Part shown: piece after piece, positions 1 through 49,017 of the stretch
How positions within the stretch are numbered: the stretch's first letter is position 1
How the letters are laid out: each line of letters starts with the position of its first letter
Source: Thermoplasmata archaeon
GTDB lineage: Archaea > Thermoplasmatota > E2 > DHVEG-1
DNA: 49,945 bases
NCBI GenBank assembly: GCA_020054475.1
Contig: JAHWGJ010000010.1
Span: forward strand, 1 to 49,945
Direction: 5' to 3'
Made by a program: the position numbers and the translations under genes
The notes under the pieces: model-generated
What the model was told of the DNA's origin: nothing
What the model saw: only the letters and a program-made list of their open reading frames with translations
Databases searched by the model: none

Positions 1-965
1 ATTCCTAAATTAGTCGACTGAATTTGAACAATAGTATCATACATTGTATCACTTTGGTATTGAAAACTACCGCCCTCATTAGTGAATGGCGTCATAATAA
101 GATTAAAACTAACATCCTTTGGAAATGAAAAAAATTTAAAATAAGTATCTTTAGTAATATCATTTTCAATTTCAATAATACGGCTAGTAAAATCTATATT
201 ATATTCACTAATACGCGAAAATTCATAATGCCATTCACCTTCATTTCTTGTTGATGATATGGTTATTTCGGATTCTGTTGATGGGTTAAAAGAAAAATGA
301 TACTCTCTTAAAATATTTTTTTCTAAGTCAAAATTTCTACCAAAAAGAAGTATTTCTTTATTCTCAATCGATGAATCATATATGGGGTTAATATTAAATT
401 TCAAACCCTTTTCTCCATTAATAGTATTGATGAATGCCAACAATGAAAAACTAATTTTTTCTGGGATTTCATTACCAATATTATCTGGAGAAGAATATCC
501 TATTGAAATAATCTCATCCCCAATTGAAGCAGATAAATTAAAGTTATTATTTTTAATTTCTTCACCTATCCTCTCAACATTAAACAAAAATTTTAGACCG
601 ATGGATAAGTCAGGATTCATATCGAACCACGGAATAATCAGATATTGAATGATTATATCATTTCCATTAACTCCAGTATTGTCGTCTCCATCAACATTTA
701 TCTCATTTGACATAGCAAATAATATCTCAGAAGTTAACTCATATCCGTTACAAATCGTGTGGATATTACTTTTAAATAAATCTATAATTTCTAGATTATA
801 TGCTTTTAAAATACTTATTTTATTTACTTTTTTTAAATTTGAGTTTTCAATATTCTCTAATTCTTTCTCTTGTATTTGATCTTCAATTAATTGTGAATCT
901 ACTATCATGCAAATTGAATTAAAAAACATTATTGATATCATAAATACAAAAAATGGTTTTTTCAT
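1..965 (-). CDS. Secreted protein of unknown function, C-terminus off the window
   Basis: An uninterrupted minus-strand frame runs from an ATG at 965 to base 1, giving at least 321 residues, so the stop lies outside the window. The N-terminus (MKKPFFVFMISIMFF) is a typical signal peptide. The rest is rich in Asn, Ile and Ser with alternating beta-type stretches, as in secreted beta-sandwich proteins. One acidic segment (NVDGDDNTG, about residue 105) could bind calcium. I recognise no catalytic motif or named domain. The AT-rich leader upstream (966-1160) is shared with the divergently transcribed small gene at 1161. An exported surface protein is inferred from the signal peptide only. Confidence 0.75.
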   Translation of the reverse strand, partial: MKKPFFVFMISIMFFNSICMIVDSQLIEDQIQEKELENIENSNLKKVNKISILKAYNLEIIDLFKSNIHTICNGYELTSEILFAMSNEINVDGDDNTGVNGNDIIIQYLIIPWFDMNPDLSIGLKFLFNVERIGEEIKNNNFNLSASIGDEIISIGYSSPDNIGNEIPEKISFSLLAFINTINGEKGLKFNINPIYDSSIENKEILLFGRNFDLEKNILREYHFSFNPSTESEITISSTRNEGEWHYEFSRISEYNIDFTSRIIEIENDITKDTYFKFFSFPKDVSFNLIMTPFTNEGGSFQYQSDTMYDTIVQIQSTNLG

Positions 966-1160
966 TTTTATAATTCCTCTCAATTAATAAATCAGTATTA
1001 AACATTTAAATGTTCTTATAGATATAAAAATCATTAATTGAATTGTAATATCTATGAGTACATTGCTTAAATACATTTATAAAATCTAAACCAAATCATT
1101 TTAATTATATTATTAATGTAAATTATAATAAATCTGTAAAAAAGTGAAAAGAGGTTTAAT

Positions 1161-1325
1161 ATGAGCATGATTGAAAATCTTAGAGTTATAAAAAATCAGG
1201 GAATGAATTTCTTTTTAAAAGAACAGGAAAAAAAATATAAATGTTCTGAATGTGATGGGATAATTTGTGTTCATAATAGTAAATGTTATTCATGTAATAC
1301 TCAAATTAAGGATATATTTTTTTAA
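1161..1325 (+). CDS. Small zinc-ribbon protein resembling the C-terminal tail of DUF3795
   Basis: A 54-residue ORF starts at an ATG with a good ribosome site (GAGGT 6 bases upstream). It contains two Cys pairs, CSEC and CYSC, separated by GIICVHNSK, which fits a small zinc ribbon. The pattern of a GMNFFLKEQ-like helix, then C-x2-C, IICVH and C-x2-C is what I know from the C-terminal end of DUF3795 proteins, whose N-terminal Cys-rich part is missing here. It may be a stand-alone mini-protein or what remains of a truncated DUF3795 gene that has kept a start and ribosome site. Function is unknown. The next gene starts about 20 bases downstream on the same strand. Confidence 0.6.
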   Translation: MSMIENLRVIKNQGMNFFLKEQEKKYKCSECDGIICVHNSKCYSCNTQIKDIFF

Positions 1326-1347
1326 CTAAAAAATGATGGTAATTAAT

Positions 1348-1695
1348 ATGGATAAGCAAGTTGATGAGTATATAGAAAAGCAAAATTCACCTCAAAAAGA
1401 GATTTTACAAAAATTAAGAACAATTTTTCATAAAACAATTCCAAGTTGTGAAGAAAAAAAAGCGTGGGGGGTTGCAGTATTTGCGGGAGGTAAATTTTAT
1501 ATAGCTGCTATAAAGAATCGTGTTCATATAGGCTTTTCAATCAATGGATTAAACAATGAAGAGATAGATATGTTTGAGGGAAGTGGAAAAACAATGAGGC
1601 ATATTAAAATTCATTCTTTAGATGATATCAATGAGGATAAGCTTGTAAAACTTATTAAGATGGTTGATAAAAAAAGTATATGTAGTCAATGTTGA
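1348..1695 (+). CDS. DUF1801 family protein
   Basis: The protein has about 115 residues and the DUF1801 (YdhG-like) layout. A helical N-terminus (VDEYIEKQNSPQKEILQKLRTI) is followed by a beta-rich core with AWGVAVF, FYIAAIKNRVHIGF and the late motif GSGKTMRHIKI. Family members are small cytosolic proteins of unknown biochemical role. ATG codons also exist at 1333 and 1336. I prefer 1348 because homologues usually begin with a short VDEYI-like helix and the extra MMVIN has no counterpart. The gene follows the zinc-ribbon gene by about 20 bases and may be cotranscribed with it. Confidence 0.75.
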   Translation: MDKQVDEYIEKQNSPQKEILQKLRTIFHKTIPSCEEKKAWGVAVFAGGKFYIAAIKNRVHIGFSINGLNNEEIDMFEGSGKTMRHIKIHSLDDINEDKLVKLIKMVDKKSICSQC

Positions 1696-1781
1696 TCATT
1701 ATTTTTTTCCTATAAAATTTTTTTTAAAAAAAAATTGTAAAAAATTATATATTATTTTTTATTACTTTTTTTGGTGTTAAT

Positions 1782-2489
1782 TTGACTCAAACTCTTTACA
1801 TGGATGATTCATATTTAAATAAATGGGATGCGGAAGTTAAATCTGTTAGTAATAATAAATTTATTGTTTTAGATAGAACAGCTTTTTTTCCTAAAGGGGG
1901 CGGTGTTGAGTGGGATACTGGTATAATTACAACAGAGGAGGGTAAGGTTTATAATGTTGTTTATACTGGGAAGTTCTCAGGAGAGATAAGTCATGAGGTT
2001 GATAATGAAGGATTAAAAGTCGGCGATATAGTAAAATGTAATCTAAATTGGAGTCGACGGTATCTTCTAATGAGATATCATACAGCTACTCATGTTTTAA
2101 GTGGGGTTTTTTTTAATGAATATAATTTTAAGGTTACTGGAAATCAATTAACAATGGATAAAGGACGTATTGATTTAAATATGGGTGAAATGGATGTTGA
2201 TTTAATTAAAACAGCTATTGGAAAGTCAAATCAAATTATACTGAAAGAATTACCTGTAGAAATATATTATTTATCAAGAGATCAAGCTGAAAAAGATACT
2301 TCTTTATTTAAATTAGCTGTAGGTTTCACTCATGATATTGATAATATCAGAATTGTTGATATAAAAGGTTTTGATAGACAAGCAGATGGTGGTTGTCATG
2401 TTAGAAATCTCAATGAAATAGGTGCGATTAAATTTATTGATGCTGTGAATAAAGGGAAGAATTTTAAGAGAGTATATTTTTCATTATAA
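1782..2489 (+). CDS. alaX: Alanyl-tRNA editing protein AlaX
   Basis: This is a free-standing trans-editing enzyme that hydrolyses Ser- or Gly-mischarged tRNA-Ala, homologous to the editing domain of AlaRS. At 235 residues it matches the medium AlaX class: a beta-barrel N-domain with the FFPKGGG segment (about residues 36-41) followed by the zinc catalytic domain. The first zinc half-site is HTATH (H100, H104). The second reads ADGGCHV (about 201-207), whereas the common form is CGGTH, so the Cys sits three residues later than usual with Asp in its place. The start is TTG with GGTG just upstream; ATG at 1800 is an alternative. The ending NEIG...K is typical of the family. Confidence 0.88.
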   Translation: MTQTLYMDDSYLNKWDAEVKSVSNNKFIVLDRTAFFPKGGGVEWDTGIITTEEGKVYNVVYTGKFSGEISHEVDNEGLKVGDIVKCNLNWSRRYLLMRYHTATHVLSGVFFNEYNFKVTGNQLTMDKGRIDLNMGEMDVDLIKTAIGKSNQIILKELPVEIYYLSRDQAEKDTSLFKLAVGFTHDIDNIRIVDIKGFDRQADGGCHVRNLNEIGAIKFIDAVNKGKNFKRVYFSL

Positions 2490-2689
2490 TGTTTTTATAT
2501 CTCCTCTTATTCATTATAATAAATCAAAAATAATTTTTTACCTATGAAAAAAATCATTTTAACAATGATGCATAATTATATATACTTAATTTTCTCTATA
2601 TGATGTAATTAATAATAGGAACTTGTATTCTTTATCGAATTTTTTGTTTTTGTTTTTAATTATATATACTTTAACATGGAGTTTAAAAA

Positions 2690-2866
2690 ATGAATCAGAG
2701 AAGAAATAAAAAATTTAATCAAGAAAAATCAAAAAGTAATGGTAAAATTATAAGATGTGGTTTACATACAAGACCTGTTTTTGATAATGACTCTTGTCAT
2801 GGATTTATAAAAAATATAAATAAAGATGCAGATAATAATTGTAAGAACTGCAAGTACTCGTTTTGA
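2690..2866 (+). CDS. Small Cys/His-rich protein, possibly zinc binding
   Basis: This 58-residue ORF was found by reading the sequence; GGAG lies 8 bases before its ATG. A basic, Asn/Lys-rich N-terminus precedes a compact Cys/His part: CGLH, then SCHGF, then NCKNCKY. Four Cys and two His are enough for one zinc site. I do not recognise a named family. The basic tail plus zinc site would suit nucleic-acid binding, but that is inference. A T-rich stretch follows the stop and precedes the broken cold-shock gene on the same strand, so all the small genes here may belong to one unit. Confidence 0.6.
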   Translation: MNQRRNKKFNQEKSKSNGKIIRCGLHTRPVFDNDSCHGFIKNINKDADNNCKNCKYSF

Positions 2867-2912
2867 AAAATTTTTTTTATTATATTTTATTTTTAGAGAG
2901 TGAAATTAAATT

Positions 2913-3145
2913 ATGAAAGGTAAAGTTAAATGGTATGATATCAATAAGGGATATGGGTTTATTCAAGGTGACGATGGTAATTTGTTTTTGCTCATCGGTC
3001 AGATTTATCCTATTTTGAAGTTTATCTTAAAAAGGGTGATTTAGCCGAATATAATGTTATAAAAACAAAATCTGGAGTTAAAGCGATAGATATTATAGTG
3101 AAAAATCGATTAAATAATGGAGAAATAAATAATCTTTTGATATAA
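2913..3145 (+). pseudogene. Cold-shock domain protein, frameshifted
   Basis: The first 25 codons read as a normal cold-shock protein (KGKVKWYDINKGYGFIQG, containing the RNP-1-like KGYGFI). After DGNLF the frame slips in the T run at about 2983-2987 and hits a stop. The next frame then continues the family without a break: AHRSDL, then a beta strand, KKGDLAEYNV and KAIDIIVK, ending at the TAA at 3143-3145. A one-base change in the homopolymer restores a full-length protein. This is either a real recent inactivation or a sequencing error. An intact paralogue lies at 22772. Confidence 0.75.
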
Positions 3146-3325
3146 TTCTATCTATAGATTGTATAAATAATTAATGATTTTTTAATTTTATTGTTTCTAC
3201 AATACTATATTGTTATTTTATTGAGATATATGGCTTTCACGTTAGAATTCTTAGCATGTTATTTTTACAAGAAATATTTATATAAACTATCAGTATAATT
3301 ATTAATTAGGAATAAATGTGATAAT

Positions 3326-3871
3326 ATGAAAAAAGCAATAATCCTATTAATTATTATGTTAACTGCTATATCCTCAATATTTAGTGGATGTATCCAGTCA
3401 GGTTCCGGAGTATTAGTATTACAAATAACTGATGCACCTTCAGATTTAAATATTTCAAAAGCACTTGTTAATATATCTACAGTTCAGATTCATAAGGCAG
3501 ATCTTGGTACAGATGATAATGATTCAGAAGATAATGAGTCGGATACAGGTTGGTTTACTATAGTTAATAAATTGCATACCTTTGATTTAATTCAACTTAT
3601 TGACGTAAAAGAAGTGTTTGATGAGGAAGAATTAAGTGCTGGATGGTATACTCAAATTCGATTGGTTGTAGAAAGTGCATTGGTTACTATTGATGGTGTT
3701 GAATATAATTTAAGTATCCCATCAAAGAATGTGAAATTAATTTCACCTTTTGAGATAGTTGCGAATGAAACCACAACTTTGACACTTGATTTTGATGTTC
3801 ATGAATCTATACATAAAACTGGAAATGATAAATATATTATGAATCCCGCGATAAAGGTTATTCACGAATAA
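3326..3871 (+). CDS. DUF4382 domain lipoprotein
   Basis: The protein has 181 residues. The N-terminus is a lipoprotein signal with lipobox FSGC (Cys22), so the mature protein should be membrane-anchored and face outward. The body fits DUF4382: a first strand VLVLQITDAPSD, then VNISTVQIHKAD, an acidic Asp/Glu/Ser loop (about residues 63-73), HTFDLIQL, GWYTQIRLVV and a final TLTLDFDVHES. The family is found in secreted bacterial and archaeal proteins, and its ligand is unknown. It stands alone, with T-rich ends on both sides. Confidence 0.8.
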   Translation: MKKAIILLIIMLTAISSIFSGCIQSGSGVLVLQITDAPSDLNISKALVNISTVQIHKADLGTDDNDSEDNESDTGWFTIVNKLHTFDLIQLIDVKEVFDEEELSAGWYTQIRLVVESALVTIDGVEYNLSIPSKNVKLISPFEIVANETTTLTLDFDVHESIHKTGNDKYIMNPAIKVIHE

Positions 3872-38900: not shown

Positions 38901-38933
38901 TATCATTATCACCAAGTAATAATGCTACAAATG
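38901..38933 (+). repeat. Intergenic orientation-locked repeat, copy 18
   Basis: TATCATTATCACC then AAGTAATAATGCTACAAA. Inner ATCATT and AATGAT are complementary. Confidence 0.92.
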
Positions 38934-38975
38934 ATTTTATATCAGAACATCTAATATTATATTGGGGAGGTAATA

Positions 38976-41201: not shown

Positions 41202-43220
41202 ATGTTAAAAATTTTGCGTAAAAGTATATTGATTTTCACAGTTATGCTATTATTTATATCTATAGTTTCAACCCCTGTTATAAATAGTCAAAATTTAATT
41301 TTTAATAATTATAGCATCACAAAAACAATTTCTGGTGTAACATTACATGTTGGTGGTAATGGGGCAGGAAATTATAGCACAATTCAAAGTGCAATTAATA
41401 ATGCAAATAATGGTGATACTGTATATGTCCATAAAGGATTATATTATGAAAACATTGTCATAAATAAAACTATAAATCTAACTGGCGAAGATAAGAATAT
41501 TACATACATAGATGGCAGTGGAATAGATGTTGTTGTAAAGATTTTAAAAGATTTTGTTAATATCTCAAATTTCAAGATAATGCATTCTGGACCATATTCA
41601 GGTCTAGGTGATGACTCGGGAATTCTAATATTGTCAAATTCAACTATAGTTAATGATTGTATTTTTCAAGAAAATGAATGTGCAATAATGATGGGATATA
41701 CTGTAAGCGATAATAAAATAATTGATTGCAGCCTATACAATAATTATCTTGGAATATGGGTACATGGTTCAAATAATACTATCAGTAATAATGTAATAGT
41801 CAAAACAGGCAATATGGGTATTATGCTTGACTATGCTGATAATTGTACAATTATTAACAATAACATCATAAATAATCCAATTGGAACAAGATTCTATGAG
41901 TCCCATAATAATATTATTTTTAATAACAATTATTTAAATAACTGGTATACTGCAATACAAATTCATCATTCTTTTACTTATCAGAATAATATTATTAATA
42001 ATCTTTTTGAAGAAAACGAAATAGCTATCGATATTTTCTCAAATGCTTATAATAACGCTATTTATCATAATTTTTTTGTTAACAATACTTTATCTGCTAG
42101 AGATGATAATCATAATTTCTGGTATAGCACTTCAATTCAAGAAGGTAATTACTGGGATGATTATACTGGAACTGATTCTGATGGTAACGGCATTGGTGAT
42201 ATACCATATTATATTTCAGGTGGTAGTAATCAGGATTTATATCCCTTAGGTTTTTTCCATCCAATTGCTGATGCAGATGGACCATATTATGGAAATACAG
42301 ATAATCCTATAAACTTTGATGGCTCTGGTAGTTTTGAACCTGATGGAACAATAATTTCTTTTGAGTGGGATTTTGGAGATGGAAATATAGGAATGGGTAT
42401 GAGTCCAACTTATAAATATAATATATTTGGAAATTATACTATAACTCTTACTGTTACTGATGATGATGGGCTTACTGACACAGCTACATCCTATGCAGTT
42501 ATTGATAATGGAACTCCCCCTATTTTTCCAATAATTTTGTTAAATTATCCTGAAGGTGGAGAAATCCTAAAAGATACGATAACAGTTGAATGGTTTGCTT
42601 ATGATAATGTTGATGGAGATAATCTGCCGATATATCTCTTCTATTCAGATAAAGAAGGAGATTCATGGTATCAAATAAATGATGTTTTAGAAAATGATGG
42701 AGAATACAATTGGGATACAATAACTCTTCCAGATGGACATTATAAATTATTAATCGAAACTCAGGATAGTGATGGAAATATTGGTTTTGACAAGAGTGAT
42801 TTGTTTGAAATTGATAATCATGAAGATCCGATAGAGAATCTTCCACCAAACAAACCCGCGAAACCAACTGGAGAAATATCTGGTAAAACTGATGAAATAT
42901 ACAAATATAATTCAACTACTAATGATCCTGATGACGACCAGATATGGTTCTACTGGGATTTCGGCGATAATGAACTATCAGGTTGGCTTGGCCCATACAA
43001 CACTGGAAATATCTGTGGGATAGTCCATAGCTGGAATGAAGATGGCGAGTATACAATAAAAGTGAAAGCAAAGGACGTATATGGTGAAGAATCTGAATGG
43101 TCTGATCCTCTCACTGTTACCATGCCAAAATCGAAAATATTCAATCAGATTCCAAGAATACTATTATGGTTGTTTGAACGATTCCCTTTCCTACAACCAT
43201 ATTTCTCTCATTTTATTTGA
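41202..43220 (+). CDS. Secreted NosD beta-helix protein with PKD and C-terminal PKD-like module
   Basis: The protein has 672 residues with a signal peptide (to about 30). The NosD-type helix (about 45-355) has LHVGGNGAGNYSTIQSAINN, PbH1 coils, and the closing GNYWDDYTGTDSDGNGIGDIPYYI. A canonical PKD domain follows (about 355-430: ADADGPYYG, FDGSGSFEPDGTIISFEWDFGDG). An Ig-like domain (about 438-540) comes next, then the shared PKD-like module (about 555-650: FYWDFGDNELSGWLGPYNTG, KVKAKDVYGEESEWSD). The end is VTMPKSK and the tail LLWLFERFPFLQPYF. It is a large surface protein, probably polysaccharide binding. Confidence 0.88.
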   Translation: MLKILRKSILIFTVMLLFISIVSTPVINSQNLIFNNYSITKTISGVTLHVGGNGAGNYSTIQSAINNANNGDTVYVHKGLYYENIVINKTINLTGEDKNITYIDGSGIDVVVKILKDFVNISNFKIMHSGPYSGLGDDSGILILSNSTIVNDCIFQENECAIMMGYTVSDNKIIDCSLYNNYLGIWVHGSNNTISNNVIVKTGNMGIMLDYADNCTIINNNIINNPIGTRFYESHNNIIFNNNYLNNWYTAIQIHHSFTYQNNIINNLFEENEIAIDIFSNAYNNAIYHNFFVNNTLSARDDNHNFWYSTSIQEGNYWDDYTGTDSDGNGIGDIPYYISGGSNQDLYPLGFFHPIADADGPYYGNTDNPINFDGSGSFEPDGTIISFEWDFGDGNIGMGMSPTYKYNIFGNYTITLTVTDDDGLTDTATSYAVIDNGTPPIFPIILLNYPEGGEILKDTITVEWFAYDNVDGDNLPIYLFYSDKEGDSWYQINDVLENDGEYNWDTITLPDGHYKLLIETQDSDGNIGFDKSDLFEIDNHEDPIENLPPNKPAKPTGEISGKTDEIYKYNSTTNDPDDDQIWFYWDFGDNELSGWLGPYNTGNICGIVHSWNEDGEYTIKVKAKDVYGEESEWSDPLTVTMPKSKIFNQIPRILLWLFERFPFLQPYFSHFI

Positions 43221-43267
43221 TTTATTCTTTTGTCTCTCAGGAGTCTTCAATAATATGATGTATTCCT

Positions 43268-44941: not shown

Positions 44942-45050
44942 TATTTCATATTCAATTAATTCATTTAAATTTGTTCAAAAATTTAATCATTAATTTTATC
45001 TCTCAGGAGGCTTCAAAACAAAGTTTTTTGTGTTGAATGTAAATAAAAAG

Positions 45051-45505
45051 AGGTGTTAAACCTAACTTTTAGCCTGACTCCCGGCTGGGGCGTATATTTA
45101 ACTTTTAGCTAAATTCCTTTCCCTGAATTTATTTTACACAAAATATCTAGTTCAATAGATTGATATTATTCTATACTTTTCTATCAATTCCCAACAGTGG
45201 CTTAATATTATTGACTATTCTACTAGTAAACTGCAGTTCCATTCCCGACAGGAGCATTATACTAATTTACTTTCTAATAAGAGTTAAACCTGGAATTAGA
45301 GTCTCCTCCCCTGCATACCTAAGATTTCAACAGGAGAAAAACCATGAATTTTTCTGGTTGACATTGTTGTGGTTAAAAAAGTGATTTAAACCCTAAAACT
45401 TTGTTAGCAATTCCGATAGATGTCTTGTGATATAAAAGGAATTTTGTCAAGGTATTTTTAATCAACGAGACTATCAATCAGCAGGTTGAAAAACAACATA
45501 AATAA
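45051..45505 (+). repeat. Duplicated non-coding element, long copy
   Basis: The left end (TTAAACCTAACTTTTAG, GACTCCC, GTATATTTAACTTTTAG) and the right end (GTATTTTTAATCAACGAGAC, GAAAAACAACAT) match a shorter copy at 48672-48831. About 290 extra bases in the middle include degenerate units of about 54-55 bases starting near 45080, 45190 and 45244 (CCCGGCTGGGGC, CCCAACAGTGGC, CCCGACAGGAGC). It is GC-richer than its surroundings. Repeat copy 21 follows directly. Confidence 0.7.
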
Positions 45506-45538
45506 AATCATAATCAGCAAGTAATAATGCTACAAATG
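45506..45538 (+). repeat. Intergenic orientation-locked repeat, copy 21
   Basis: AAAATCATAATCAGC then AAGTAATAATGCTACAAA. Confidence 0.92.
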
Positions 45539-45690
45539 TCACATTTTGCATTTTTATTATTTGTTAATATAGGTTGAATTATTTTGAGAAAATATTCATA
45601 AAAAATGATAATTTTTATATTTTGAACAAAATTGTTACAAAAAACTTTATTAATACAATCATAAATATTATTTGTGGGAGTGAATAACAT

Positions 45691-46518
45691 ATGCGTAAAG
45701 ATATTATTGTCTCAACTATAATTTTAATGCTGTTCATATCTATATTCCCTATTGCAGTTTCGAATAACTTAGATATTAAAAATATAAATTCAGATAGAGA
45801 TGTGTTTAATAGATGTTATATTGAAATTGAGGGGGATATTTATGATCAATGGAAGATTTGTTTTCTTAAACCATTTGGAGATTATAGATCAACTGTTGTA
45901 TATTGGCATTTAGAGTTTAATCCTGATTCTGAAATTAAAATTTATGATGAAAAAGATGGGGAATTATTATCTGAATATACTGGATCAAGACAGATTAATA
46001 TAATTGCTTTTGGAGGTATATATATACCAAGTAGGTTAAATGTTAACAGTCCCTTGCATGTTAGTATAAATGGCAATGTTTTAAAAATTATTTCAAAAAA
46101 ACTATTGGATACATCTGATTCAACTATAGAATCAAAGTCAAATTGTAAAATATTAAATGATAAAATAAACTTTAATAATTGTTATATTGAACTTTCTGGT
46201 GAAATTCATAATGATTGGCCAGCATTAGTAAAATTTCCAAATTTATTTAGATTATTTTGGGTTGGATCAGATATAAATAATGTATTATTTGGAACGTATT
46301 GTTATATACTTTACGAAAATGATGCTTTAGTTAAAATTTATAATGAAAAAGATGGGGATCTTATTTGGGAACATGATGGCGTTAATGACCCATTAGTTAC
46401 AATCATTGGATTCAAAGGCGATTATGAATACATTGATGAACCATATAATCTTGATAATGTTGTCTTTTCTGGAAATACATTATTTACAAGTATAAGATTA
46501 GGTGAATGGGGTTATTAA
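45691..46518 (+). CDS. Secreted protein with two copies of a domain shared with the esterase gene
   Basis: The protein has 275 residues with a signal peptide (to about 24). Two copies of a beta domain of about 100 residues follow. The first has FNRCYIEIEGDIYDQW, EIKIYDEKDGELL, INIIAFGGIY and SINGNVLKIISK. The second has FNNCYIELSGEIHNDW, LVKIYNEKDGDLI, VTIIGFKGDY and FSGNTLFTSIR. The same pattern occurs once at the N-terminus of the erythromycin-esterase-like protein at 34474. I cannot name the family. An exported binding or structural role is likely. GGGAGTGA precedes the start. It is alone between repeat copies 21 and 22. Confidence 0.75.
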   Translation: MRKDIIVSTIILMLFISIFPIAVSNNLDIKNINSDRDVFNRCYIEIEGDIYDQWKICFLKPFGDYRSTVVYWHLEFNPDSEIKIYDEKDGELLSEYTGSRQINIIAFGGIYIPSRLNVNSPLHVSINGNVLKIISKKLLDTSDSTIESKSNCKILNDKINFNNCYIELSGEIHNDWPALVKFPNLFRLFWVGSDINNVLFGTYCYILYENDALVKIYNEKDGDLIWEHDGVNDPLVTIIGFKGDYEYIDEPYNLDNVVFSGNTLFTSIRLGEWGY

Positions 46519-46567
46519 AAAATCCAGAAAATAAAATAATAATAAAAAATATAATAACTAAAAATTA

Positions 46568-46589
46568 TTTTTTCCTCCTTTTACTTTTT
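46568..46589 (+). terminator. Pyrimidine-rich terminator
   Basis: TTTTTTCCTCCTTTTACTTT, 50 bases after the stop of the 45691 gene and directly before repeat copy 22. Confidence 0.5.
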
Positions 46590-46596
46590 ATTATCA

Positions 46597-46629
46597 ATCT
46601 CATAATCAGCAAGTAATAATGCTACAAAT
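46597..46629 (+). repeat. Intergenic orientation-locked repeat, copy 22
   Basis: AATCTCATAATCAGC then AAGTAATAATGCTACAAA, between convergent genes. AATCTCA on the left pairs with TGAGATT at about 46637-46643. Confidence 0.92.
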
Positions 46630-46648
46630 ATTCTTTGAGATTAGATTT

Positions 46649-47254
46649 TTAGTTATTGAGAAATATCATCAATGGTAAGACAAAGTAAAATAGCTGAAAG
46701 GGTGTTACTCCAAGTCTTTCTAGTAAACCTCTATAGTTACTCTCGATAAATATTCCCGAAATAATCAACAGAATTAGGGCAACTATCGCAGAAACTAATG
46801 AATAGTTTGCAAATGTACTCCAACCAGTAACATCTTTTAATCTAAACCAAAGTAAAATCATACCAACTATAGTAAGTATTCCCATTATAATTACTAATAT
46901 CAAATGCATTTTTCCTCTCCAAGTAGTCATTTCTCCACCTTCATCGAGAGGGAAGAAGAAAGCAATGAAGACTCCTAGTATTGATGCAAGAATAAATAGA
47001 TATGGTCCAATAATTGAACCTCCATCTTTTAATCCTTCATGCAATCCTAGATAAAATAGAAAAAGTAAGACACTTGATATAATAATGAAAGTTTGCATTA
47101 ATCGCTTGTTTGGAGCTCCAACTGCAAATAATGAACTTATATCATGTCTGATATGACTATAATCTGATTGTAATTTTCCACCAATAATCCACATTAATGT
47201 GTAAAATATTGGACTTAGCATTCCGCATATTGCTAAAATTTGAATGAAATTCAT
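46649..47254 (-). CDS. DUF998 membrane protein
   Basis: The protein has 201 residues from the ATG at 47254, which lies 1 base after the stop of the upstream gene; an ATG at 47275 would add seven residues and overlap it. Six helices are predicted, with the DUF998 pattern: an early GxxSPIFYTLMWIIGG, then YSHIRHDISSLFAVGAPN, a helix pair, and FFPLDEGG before helix 4. DUF998 is an uncharacterised membrane family, often beside stress or regulator genes. It is the third gene of an operon with DUF6326 and an MDR dehydrogenase. Confidence 0.82.
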   Translation of the reverse strand: MNFIQILAICGMLSPIFYTLMWIIGGKLQSDYSHIRHDISSLFAVGAPNKRLMQTFIIISSVLLFLFYLGLHEGLKDGGSIIGPYLFILASILGVFIAFFFPLDEGGEMTTWRGKMHLILVIIMGILTIVGMILLWFRLKDVTGWSTFANYSLVSAIVALILLIISGIFIESNYRGLLERLGVTPFQLFYFVLPLMIFLNN

Positions 47255-47255
47255 T

Positions 47256-47621
47256 TTAAACCCATGTCCATGCATACCAAACAGTTAAAGCATTAAACAT
47301 TAGACCTATAACTATCAAAAATCTATCATAAATTCCAGGATAAGAACGAAATCCCGCAAGATTAAAGACAAATAAAAATCCAGCTGCTATTATGTGTAAC
47401 CATTGAATCGCAGGATAAAATAATGTTAAAGATAAAACAACCATAATAATTGGAATTAGCATAAGTAAAGCCATTAACATAAGCATACCTTGTGTCATTT
47501 TTTTACCTTCAATTTTCCCTGGCGTAAAATCACCAGCAAATATTCTCATAACATCACCTAAAAGATAAGTCAGCATTAGAGCAATCCATAATCCCACAAG
47601 AATTATTCTAATATCCTCCAT
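47256..47621 (-). CDS. DUF6326-like membrane protein
   Basis: The protein has 121 residues with four membrane helices. The sequence pattern IRIILVGLWIALMLTYLLGDVMRIF, then KMTQGMLMLMALLMLIPIIMV, and a last helix ending ALTVWYAWTW agrees with what I know as the DUF6326 family. Function is unknown. Its start overlaps the stop of the dehydrogenase gene by 1 base (TAATG) and its stop abuts the DUF998 start, so translation is coupled through the operon. GAATAATGGAGG around the start holds the next ribosome site. Confidence 0.75.
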   Translation of the reverse strand: MEDIRIILVGLWIALMLTYLLGDVMRIFAGDFTPGKIEGKKMTQGMLMLMALLMLIPIIMVVLSLTLFYPAIQWLHIIAAGFLFVFNLAGFRSYPGIYDRFLIVIGLMFNALTVWYAWTWV

Positions 47622-48583
47622 TATTCAATCACCTTTATTACTATTTTTCCTTTGGTATGTTTTTCTTCATAATAATTTATAGCTTCTGCAATCTGATTTA
47701 GTGAATAACATCTATCAATTATTGGTTTTATTTTACCTGATTCAATAAGCTGTCTTATGTAAGATAAATCCTTTTTATTTAGTTTAGCCATATATGATTT
47801 CACCCTTTTACTTCCAAACAATGATATTATTGGTCCTAGAAATATAGAGGTAGGATTGAAATCACATGCAATATATGTACCATGTGGAGTTAATGCACGT
47901 TTATATTCAGAAATTGAGTGGCTTACATGAAGATCAAAAATTAAATCATAATGCTGCCCACTTTTTGTAAAATCTTCTTTAGCATAATCAATTACATTAT
48001 CTGCTCCTATAGAATGTATCATGTCTATCTTCTTCGTACTACACACACCAGTTACTTCAGCACCAAAGTATTTGGCAATCTGAACAGCAAATATGCCTAT
48101 TCCTGAACTAGCACCATTAATCAATACCTTTTGTCCTTTTTTTATCTGTCCATGATTTCTAAGACCTTGTAAGGCTACAACCGATGCTTGAGGAATAGAT
48201 GCTGCTTCCTTAAATGTCAAATTAGTAGGTTTGAGTACTATTGTTTTTTCAGGGATTGTAATATATTCAGCAAACCCACCGAAACCAACATCTCCTATAT
48301 CACCAAATACCTCATCTCCTGGTTTAAACTCCTTAATATTTCTTCCAACAGCTTCAACTTGTCCTGCTATGTCAGAACCAAGAGTTTTATTTTTTGGTTT
48401 TAGAAAACCCTGCCAAAGACGTCCTAAGAAAGGTTTACCTCTTGTTAATGTCGAATCAGATGAATTTATTGCTGAAGCATGAATTTTTACAAGAATTTCA
48501 TTTTCATTAGGGATAGGTTTTGATATTTCCTTGATTTGATGAACTTCTGGAGGTCCATATTTTTCATAAACAACCGCTTTCAT
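47621..48583 (-). CDS. Zinc-free MDR family NAD(P)H-dependent oxidoreductase (quinone oxidoreductase-like)
   Basis: The 320-residue protein is a medium-chain dehydrogenase/reductase. The N-terminal GroES-like part has MKAVVYEKYGPPEV, HASAINSSDSTLTRG, LGSDIAGQVEAVG and FKPGDEVFGD. The Rossmann part has VLINGASSGIGIFAVQIAKYFGAEVTGVCS. The family's structural zinc Cys cluster is absent, as in quinone oxidoreductases and related reductases. It ends with the usual AINYYEEKHTKGKIVIKV. The predicted role is cytosolic reduction of quinones or enones with NADPH. It leads the three-gene operon with DUF6326 and DUF998, a combination often seen in bacteria, which suggests gene transfer (inference). Confidence 0.88.
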   Translation of the reverse strand: MKAVVYEKYGPPEVHQIKEISKPIPNENEILVKIHASAINSSDSTLTRGKPFLGRLWQGFLKPKNKTLGSDIAGQVEAVGRNIKEFKPGDEVFGDIGDVGFGGFAEYITIPEKTIVLKPTNLTFKEAASIPQASVVALQGLRNHGQIKKGQKVLINGASSGIGIFAVQIAKYFGAEVTGVCSTKKIDMIHSIGADNVIDYAKEDFTKSGQHYDLIFDLHVSHSISEYKRALTPHGTYIACDFNPTSIFLGPIISLFGSKRVKSYMAKLNKKDLSYIRQLIESGKIKPIIDRCYSLNQIAEAINYYEEKHTKGKIVIKVIE

Positions 48584-48647
48584 ATTTAAAATCCAAATTA
48601 ATGAATTAAGATCTTATAAAAAAATATATCCTTTTACTCTAAATAGT

Positions 48648-48674
48648 TGTAACCAAGTAATAATGTAATAAATG
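48648..48674 (+). repeat. Intergenic orientation-locked repeat, copy 23 (left half decayed)
   Basis: GTAACC then AAGTAATAATGTAATAAATG. Confidence 0.8.
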
Positions 48675-48831
48675 AAAAGTTGTATTAAACTTAACTTTTA
48701 GATAGACTCCCTTCCCCAGCATATATTTAACTATTAGTTAAATTCCGGCAGACAGCTTGTAATTTAAATTGAATTTGGTCAGGGTATTTTTAATCAACGA
48801 GACTGTCAGTTAAGGGGTTGGAAAACAACAT
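48672..48831 (+). repeat. Duplicated non-coding element, short copy
   Basis: TTAAACTTAACTTTTAG, GACTCCC, CATATATTTAACTATTAG, and then GTATTTTTAATCAACGAGAC and GAAAACAACAT match both ends of the element at 45051-45505. It is the only content between repeat copies 23 and 24. Confidence 0.7.
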
Positions 48832-48856
48832 TTCACAAAGTAATAATGCTACAAAT
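48827..48856 (+). repeat. Intergenic orientation-locked repeat, copy 24
   Basis: AACATTTCACA then AAGTAATAATGCTACAAA; follows the short non-coding element directly, as copy 21 follows the long one. Confidence 0.9.
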
Positions 48857-49017
48857 ATTGATATTTTGTTAGAATTCAATTTATTATTTTGTTAAAATGT
48901 TTATTTTATTATTTTAGTTAGTATGTTATTGATTTGGAACAAAATAATAATTCTTAATTAAAAATATTTATAAATAACATATTTATAGTTTTTGATTGTT
49001 AATAGAAATGAGATAAT

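Follow-up and report, generated by a model that had tools for sequence, protein, structure and literature searches.

The window analysed here, 49,945 nucleotides of contig JAHWGJ010000010.1 (assembly GCA_020054475.1), belongs to the 72% complete draft genome of an AT-rich Thermoplasmata archaeon. This host genome is labelled G000 and its contigs carry C-numbers, while G001 designates the sister species and G004 the genus g4. No intact tRNA gene is present in the window. Between positions 44,996 and 48,860, a gene-free unit occurs in a long and a short copy, with protein-coding genes in between:

44996..45039, + strand: H module, putative right end of an upstream element, TTTTGTCTCTCAGGAGGCTTCAAAACAAAGTTTTTTGTGTTGAATG family, ~18 genome copies
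45056..45077, + strand: alpha segment TTAAACCTAACTTTTAGCCTGA, immediately 5' of a tRNA-like core; recurs before other cores
45078..45093, + strand: tRNA-Asp(gtc)-type core, 15/16 to the 3' end of the gene at C24:21980-22054 (fragment scan)
45188..45203, + strand: tRNA-Thr(ggt)-like core, 13/16 to the 3' end of that tRNA; weak by itself, with support from G004:C127
45242..45257, + strand: core resembling a tRNA-Glu 3' end, 14/16, after beta TACTAGTAAACTGCAGTTCCA; matches C2:5268-5355 and C42:57890
45301..45316, + strand: tRNA-Leu(caa)-type core, 15/16 to the 3' end of the gene at C35:23940-24026
45317..45400, + strand: putative left-end segment ACCTAAGATTTCAACAGGAGAAAAACCATGAATTTTT..., as behind intact tRNA-Leu genes, 89% identity to C35
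45408..45426, + strand: degenerate core-like stretch AATTCCGATAGATGTCTTG, tentatively of tRNA origin, aligned with 48741-48759
45452..45497, + strand: E module, putative left end, GTATTTTTAATCAACGAGAC...GGTTGAAAAACAAC, 11 genome copies
45507..45540, + strand: orientation-locked repeat R, putative first cassette boundary of the downstream element
45691..46518, + strand: gene for a 275-aa protein without family match, first cargo cassette
46600..46629, + strand: R repeat separating cargo cassettes
46649..48583, - strand: three-gene cargo cassette (DUF998, DUF6326, zinc alcohol dehydrogenase; Pfam)
48651..48665, + strand: partial R repeat (left half), joined to the short copy
48685..48706, + strand: alpha segment of the short copy
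48707..48722, + strand: core resembling a tRNA-Leu 3' end, CTCCCTTCCCCAGCAT, 14/16 to C22:68391 and C25:20588 by eye
48741..48759, + strand: degenerate core-like stretch AATTCCGGCAGACAGCTTG, conserved before E in C6 and C30
48784..48829, + strand: E module of the short copy
48831..48860, + strand: R repeat after the short copy

The recurrence of both ends of 45051-45505 in the short copy, reported in an earlier note on this DNA, is real. Indeed, 78% identity was found between 45040-45117 and 48669-48746 and 80% between 45409-45499 and 48741-48831, and GTATTTTTAATCAACGAGAC occurs exactly twice in the window, against 0.01 occurrences expected from shuffles. The left limit proposed in that note proved to be misplaced: the long copy extends some 50 bases further to the left, where it opens with a 40-base module present in ~18 genome copies, and the H module was thereby lost. 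The putative long-copy junction spans 44996-45540, and its short, degenerate version 48651-48860. R directly follows each copy, with repeat cores at 45519-45537 and 48838-48856. The short copy is the sole content between the repeats at 48655 and 48838, but the former is degenerate and only its left half is intact. Conservation without a reading frame was also corroborated: stops interrupt all frames of both copies, and no open stretch of the short copy exceeds 23 codons.

A genome-wide search for the two ends located the right module E at about 11 places and the left module H at about 18, and pieces of the unit were also detected singly elsewhere. Most copies of H follow a gene in the sense direction, at a distance of 13-100 nt, and the module stands before tRNA 3' fragments in C35, C33, C10, C6, C30 and the sister species. 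Alpha likewise precedes cores at C10:23077, C27:878, C30:87280 and G001:C81, in addition to window position 48685. R comes immediately after E in only four of the 11 cases; E itself lies right next to the end of tRNA-Arg(gcg) in C40, downstream of tRNA-Leu(caa) in C35, and at an insertion edge in C25. R itself has approximately 90 candidate copies, which keep a single orientation along most contigs, with 53 cargo genes in sense and 34 in antisense relative to it. A function of R as a gene-expression signal was considered and set aside, cargo genes lying on both of its strands. The degenerate stretch AATTCCGGCAGACAGCTTG recurs in another genus (G024:C120), where an H-like module precedes it. 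A scan of genome contigs with the exact E pattern returned 4 matches, in unrelated bacteria, which is about the chance estimate for a degenerate 20-mer, and the exact R, H and E patterns had no match in viral contigs.

The middle of the long copy consists of a row of tRNA-gene 3' ends, namely Asp(gtc), probably Thr(ggt), a Glu-like end and Leu(caa), and the sequence that follows the Leu core is the one found behind the intact tRNA-Leu(caa) gene in C35. Three cores with no more than 2 mismatches were detected in the 541-base unit, compared with none in 400 shuffles. Genome-wide, non-tRNA matches to tRNA 3' ends numbered 20 at up to 2 mismatches and 7 at up to 1 mismatch, versus 4 and 0, respectively, with reversed patterns. 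Matches to Lys(ttt) were excluded from the fragment counts as noise. Fragments on the same strand as their own gene and downstream of it were found for Thr(ggt) (three), Thr(tgt), Leu(caa), Tyr and Arg(gcg), two of Lys(ctt) being possible further cases, and none was found upstream of its own gene in the host genome, Lys(ttt) left aside. A reading of these fragments as split or permuted tRNAs was dropped, as they duplicate the ends of intact tRNA genes.

The assignment of 45242..45257 to Glu, based on the acceptor sequence, is putative, and the same core is present in G001:C81 and G004:C127. The Thr-like core is a chance-level match when taken alone, and is supported by the occurrence of ATTCCCCCCAGCGGCT at the equivalent place in G004:C127, before Glu and Leu cores. 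Several cores are degenerate, including two AATTCCG stretches; the one at 45408..45426 resembles the 3' end of tRNA-Arg(ccg), a likeness not significant alone. The order Glu-Leu(caa) was found in G001:C81, at the true right edge of the tRNA-Leu site, Thr-Glu-Leu(gag) in G004, and Glu-Leu in the closed genome G026. Since other genera show this order again (Thr-Glu-Leu or Glu-Leu), the row is inherited rather than a product of chance. In C25 the row reads Arg-Leu-Glu and has the opposite direction to E, and in C6 an inverted element follows tRNA-Thr(tgt), so orientation is not fixed.

At several loci, the same modules bound segments that lie between an intact tRNA gene and its duplicated 3' end. 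Directly oriented duplicates marking the far border were observed for Leu(caa), Tyr, Thr(tgt), Arg(gcg) and Thr(ggt). A clean element is found in C35, where tRNA-Leu(caa) is followed by the left-end segment, E, R, the only gene (encoding a 752-aa PAS-domain protein), H, beta and a tRNA-Leu 3' end. One site that is empty in one species and occupied in the other was also identified: host flank directly follows tRNA-Arg(ccg) in G000, whereas in G001 H plus an Arg 3' end stand before an 86%-identical flank. At another tRNA gene, Thr(ggt), G000 shows a 16 kb gain: synteny resumes after 1.1 kb in G001, against 16 kb in G000, where C10 carries three Thr 3' ends in a row. The left-end segment is also present behind tRNA-Leu genes in G001, G002, G012 and G032, and part of it could therefore be old native tRNA flank, as it follows tRNA-Leu in many genera. 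With regard to cargo, homology ends at or near R. The cassette 46649-48583 recurs over ~1.94 kb at 80% identity in another genus (G020:C230), with homology stopping at the cassette edges, and for one cassette two species share 98.3% identity, the homology beginning at R.

Altogether, the gene-free unit is quite probably the place where two integrative elements join, both from a family that uses tRNA-gene 3' ends as insertion sites. Among the options offered in the earlier note (an RNA, a recombination site or a MITE-like element) the second was the right one, whereas the resemblance to an ORF-less cassette holds for the geometry of the short copy only, the unit as a whole being read as two element ends that meet. 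According to this model, the left part (H plus alpha) would be the right end of the upstream element and the tRNA-like cores would be attachment-site cores, the Leu(caa) core being the most complete. Upstream of this core, those of the Asp, Thr-like and Glu-like types may represent relics of earlier targets, carried along with the element, so that the row would record target switching. The downstream element would have the right part (the segment after the Leu core, E and R) as its left end, and a series of R-bounded gene cassettes as its cargo. A right end, a core and a left end are also what a closed circle (attP) would be expected to contain, and a junction in a tandem series would look attP-like. 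The two window copies thus probably flank a tandem element at ~45.45-48.70 kb, although the series cannot be anchored to its target because the window lacks an intact tRNA gene. The degenerate state of several cores, the variable orientation in C25 and C6 and the possibly native flank behind tRNA-Leu also weigh against this reading, and neither a circle nor an excision product is visible in assembled contigs of the draft genome.

Recombination would be carried out by a tyrosine recombinase. The genome encodes 13 of these enzymes, one located directly behind tRNA-Tyr (C6:59881-61089) and another behind a Glu core (C2:5409-6611), with 41% identity between them. No integrase gene was seen in the 45.5-48.7 kb window element or in the C35 element, suggesting that the recombinase may be supplied in trans.

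It is conceivable, though less likely than not, that the row is either a working multi-target array or a chronological record of target hopping, with the oldest core innermost and the current one outermost, and that the family also shuffles R-bounded cassettes; if true, two nested levels of site-specific gene capture would operate here. The first of these options taken by itself, a functional array kept for insertion at several tRNA genes, each of which is restored, seems rather unlikely. It would explain the order conserved in three genera (Thr-Glu-Leu or Glu-Leu) and the single mismatch in each of the Asp and Leu cores; nevertheless, the 2-3 mismatches in the Thr-like and Glu-like cores would damage the acceptor stem, and the same type of element occurs with a single core (C35) or with other rows (C25).

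Slightly less probable still is an integron-like cassette platform, in which E would be attI-like, R attC-like and the short copy an ORF-less cassette. The fixed orientation of R despite genes on both strands, the 98.3%-identical cassette starting from R and the cassette common to another genus all fit such a platform. However, the best of six integrases tested in this 72%-complete genome reached 88.7 bits, against a cut-off of 265 for integron integrases; no Rfam match at the gathering threshold was obtained in the window or in five sampled loci, save for rRNA and tRNA; E plus R fold at chance level, and a hairpin was found only in the H-linked form of R (z -2.19). Moreover, such a platform accounts for R but not for the tRNA ends.

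Conservation without a frame and the presence of E behind tRNA genes in two loci could also point to a duplicated small structured RNA gene or regulatory RNA element, but this is highly improbable: folding of E plus R was no better than that of shuffles (z -0.68 and -0.01), two candidate helices showed covariation not above shuffles, no Rfam family was matched in the window, and presence at the same locus varies between related species. Equally improbable is an origin from a transposon with terminal inverted repeats, as a MITE or another derivative. The dispersed copies sharing two recurrent ends and the short palindrome within H would fit such an origin, but the ends differ in sequence, copy lengths are irregular, no terminal inverted repeats were found, none of the inverted repeats listed is a long one that spans the unit, and the duplicated target is a tRNA 3' end rather than a short random duplication. 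Of the signs that the earlier note named for an independent transposon derivative, the occurrence without the repeat was observed for E, but with tRNA 3' ends as flanks.

These results turn an odd non-coding repeat into a handle on gene gain in an uncultured archaeal family. If this interpretation of the row holds, the targets that a mobile lineage entered one after another are listed in a single short sequence, and the succession of target switches, at which trees usually allow only a guess, can be tested directly. They also call for caution, as gene-free units of this type in archaeal genomes can be att junctions rather than RNA genes.

Accretion of CIMEs and IMEs at tRNA genes involves integrase-less elements bounded by attL and attR, arranged in tandem at one tRNA, and normally proceeds through one att core. 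The three tandem Thr 3' ends in C10 resemble this situation, from which the cores of several tRNAs depart. Archaeal integrative elements with tyrosine recombinases are known to insert at tRNA 3' ends, and target switching and tandem integration have been described (PMC8371274). The elements reported here share this insertion site, but several of them measure 1-6 kb, lack an integrase gene and share short end modules, and they display cores of several tRNA genes lined up in a conserved order. In the additive flexible genomic islands of Methylophilaceae, copies of the last 20 bases of a tRNA recur with cargo between them (PMC10872708); a tRNA gene with recurring 3' ends is thus common to both systems, although those repeats derive from one tRNA (Lys), whereas here different tRNA ends adjoin without cargo between. 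Tycheposons of Prochlorococcus are outlined in the same source as tRNA-bordered cargo elements of 4-200 kb associated with a tyrosine recombinase (PMC10872708). On the basis of that outline, cargo, tRNA borders and the type of recombinase are alike, and the bacterial host and size differ. To our knowledge, neither an orientation-locked cassette repeat nor a row of several tRNA ends has been described in tycheposons. Finally, integrons, including archaeal ones, contain cassette arrays with an orientation-locked site in between and cassettes common to several genomes (PMC9668308), as do the R-separated arrays; in contrast, no integron integrase was found among the six integrases tested and no attC fold in the Rfam and folding analyses, and cargo genes lie in both orientations. 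Thus, whereas tRNA-targeting islands and their accretion are already known, the coupling of an ordered multi-tRNA row to an orientation-locked cassette repeat is new.

The duplicated ends of the two gene-free units are real: 45040-45117 and 48669-48746 are 78% identical, and 45409-45499 and 48741-48831 are 80% identical. The 20-base motif of the right end, which the earlier note had called well conserved, has two exact occurrences against 0.01 expected, and conservation without a frame was likewise confirmed, no reading frame being common to the long and short copy. Both copies are followed by the orientation-locked cassette repeat R, as had been described, but at 48655 only half of the repeat is preserved. 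The long copy runs from a right end through a series of tRNA-like cores to a left end, and no tRNA gene lies within the window. Its modules (H, right end; E, left end) and cores, with those of the short copy, are:

44996-45039, H, just beyond the stretch first described
45078, Asp(gtc) core, 1 mismatch in 16 against the tRNA 3' end
45188, Thr(ggt)-like core, 3 mismatches, weak alone
45242, Glu-like core, 2 mismatches
45301, Leu(caa) core, 1 mismatch
45452-45497, E
48784-48829, E of the short copy

Several cores are degenerate, and the Glu identity of one is suggested by its acceptor sequence. Three cores with at most 2 mismatches occur in 541 bases, against zero in 400 shuffles, and genome-wide, outside tRNA genes, 20 such matches were found versus 4 with reversed patterns. 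The stretch 45317-45400, behind the Leu core, is 89% identical to the sequence that C35 has after its intact tRNA-Leu(caa) gene. The window genome (G000) is a draft of 46 contigs, 1.68 Mb, 28% GC and 72% completeness, in which no intact tRNA-Glu gene was found; its archaeal rRNA genes lie on a contig other than C44, the one that makes up the window. A weak tRNA match (C42:57890-57954, 24.9 bits) ends in a Glu-like core and directly abuts an opposite-strand H copy; an insertion has possibly disrupted a tRNA gene here.

Elsewhere in the genome, tRNA 3'-end fragments lie downstream of their own intact gene on the same strand, at these distances:

Leu(caa), 2.8 kb
Arg(gcg), 1.2 kb
Tyr, 17.1 kb
Thr(tgt), 5.7 kb, exact
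Thr(ggt), 7.6, 13.5 and 15.8 kb
Lys(ctt), possible, 8.5 and 9.4 kb, 2-3 mismatches

The clearest anatomy is that of C35, where tRNA-Leu is followed by a left segment, E, R, one gene for a 752-aa PAS-domain protein, H, a TTACCAGTAAA stretch and the tRNA-Leu 3' end. At the Tyr locus the tRNA is immediately followed by an integrase gene, and the element contains E, R and H. Both arrangements identify E and its preceding segment as left-end marks and H as a right-end mark. Element orientation is not constant. E has 11 copies, and H about 18, which usually follow a gene in the sense direction at a distance of 13-100 bases. Behind tRNA-Thr(ggt) (C10:9534-25659), three different right-end sequences stand in tandem, each joined to a Thr(ggt) 3' end, which indicates that one target was used by several element families.

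The comparison set comprised one relative from the genus (G001) and 34 from the family, and it supplied separate evidence that the elements move. At tRNA-Arg(ccg), the G000 gene is followed by host flank; in G001, H and an Arg 3' end come before that flank. The two flanks are 86% identical over ~2.5 kb, with homology beginning inside the tRNA 3' end. The tRNA-Thr(ggt) locus is syntenic on both sides, and the interval between measures 1.1 kb in G001 against 16 kb in G000. In C25 synteny with G001 ends ~50 bases before an E copy. In C17, a ~2.7-kb segment with a 644-aa gene (905-3575), absent from G001, begins ~90 bases behind an H copy common to both genomes.

The row of cores itself is inherited. 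In G001 (C81), H and alpha, the segment directly before a core, lead into a Glu core, a Leu(caa) core and finally the host flank known from C35, so that the true right border at tRNA-Leu lies here. Another genus (G004) has Thr, Glu and Leu(gag) in that order, and Glu precedes Leu by 85 bases in one closed genome (G026); in another (G002), tRNA-Leu(gag) is followed by two more Leu cores on the same strand. The Thr-like core of the window gains support because its place fits this conserved order.

R, with ~90 candidate copies, points the same way throughout most contigs, and cargo genes occupy both strands. The left half of H, CTCTCAGGAGGCTTCAAAA, is also found in another junction form where R comes directly after, so that the same gene 3' tail joins either R and a further cassette or an element end. 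In a direct case, the gene end at 43144-43250 recurs in G001 (89%), followed there by H, not R. A cassette behind tRNA-Leu in G001 (C24, L201:1-476) is 98.3% identical to G000:C4:1330-1805 in a different context, above the ~85-93% of most flanking chromosome, and homology begins at R; this pair represents a recent transfer of an R-bounded cassette. The three-gene cassette at 46649-48583 shares 80% DNA identity with a stretch in another genus (G020:C230, L222; G020:C111, L223) bordered by a different repeat, CATACCTAGCAGGTTTT, which is mostly in one orientation, as are 8 of the 9 copies within 15 kb of L223, and is possibly a genus-specific counterpart of R. A nearly identical promoter-like stretch (TGATTTTATATCAGAACATC...) lies after R and before genes at 38914-38975, where a beta-helix surface protein gene follows, and at C6:83637, C10:10997, C21:37613 and C30:91915; R and promoter apparently move as one.

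Candidate enzymes for these elements are three tyrosine recombinases with a C-terminal cysteine motif resembling a zinc ribbon (C6:59881-61089 and C2:5409-6611, 41% identical, and C21:40877-41908). They adjoin a tRNA gene, a tRNA core or an R array. In two integrase frames (C4:43364-44254 and C14:2447-3427), the first codons apparently overlap a tRNA gene or tRNA-like end in antisense.

The most economical explanation is a family of small integrative elements that target tRNA genes, frequently carry no integrase of their own, build up in tandem and move from one target to another. Old cores would stay near the right end while new ones join outside; recombination itself we infer. A limited open-access literature search found neither an ordered row of different tRNA ends nor the coupling of such a row to an R-bounded cassette array without detectable integron integrase. 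Target switching and tandem integration are already known for archaeal tyrosine recombinases (PMC8371274), tRNA 3' fragments are pervasive at element borders (PMC9897764), and islands carrying recurring ends of one tRNA have been described (PMC10872708).
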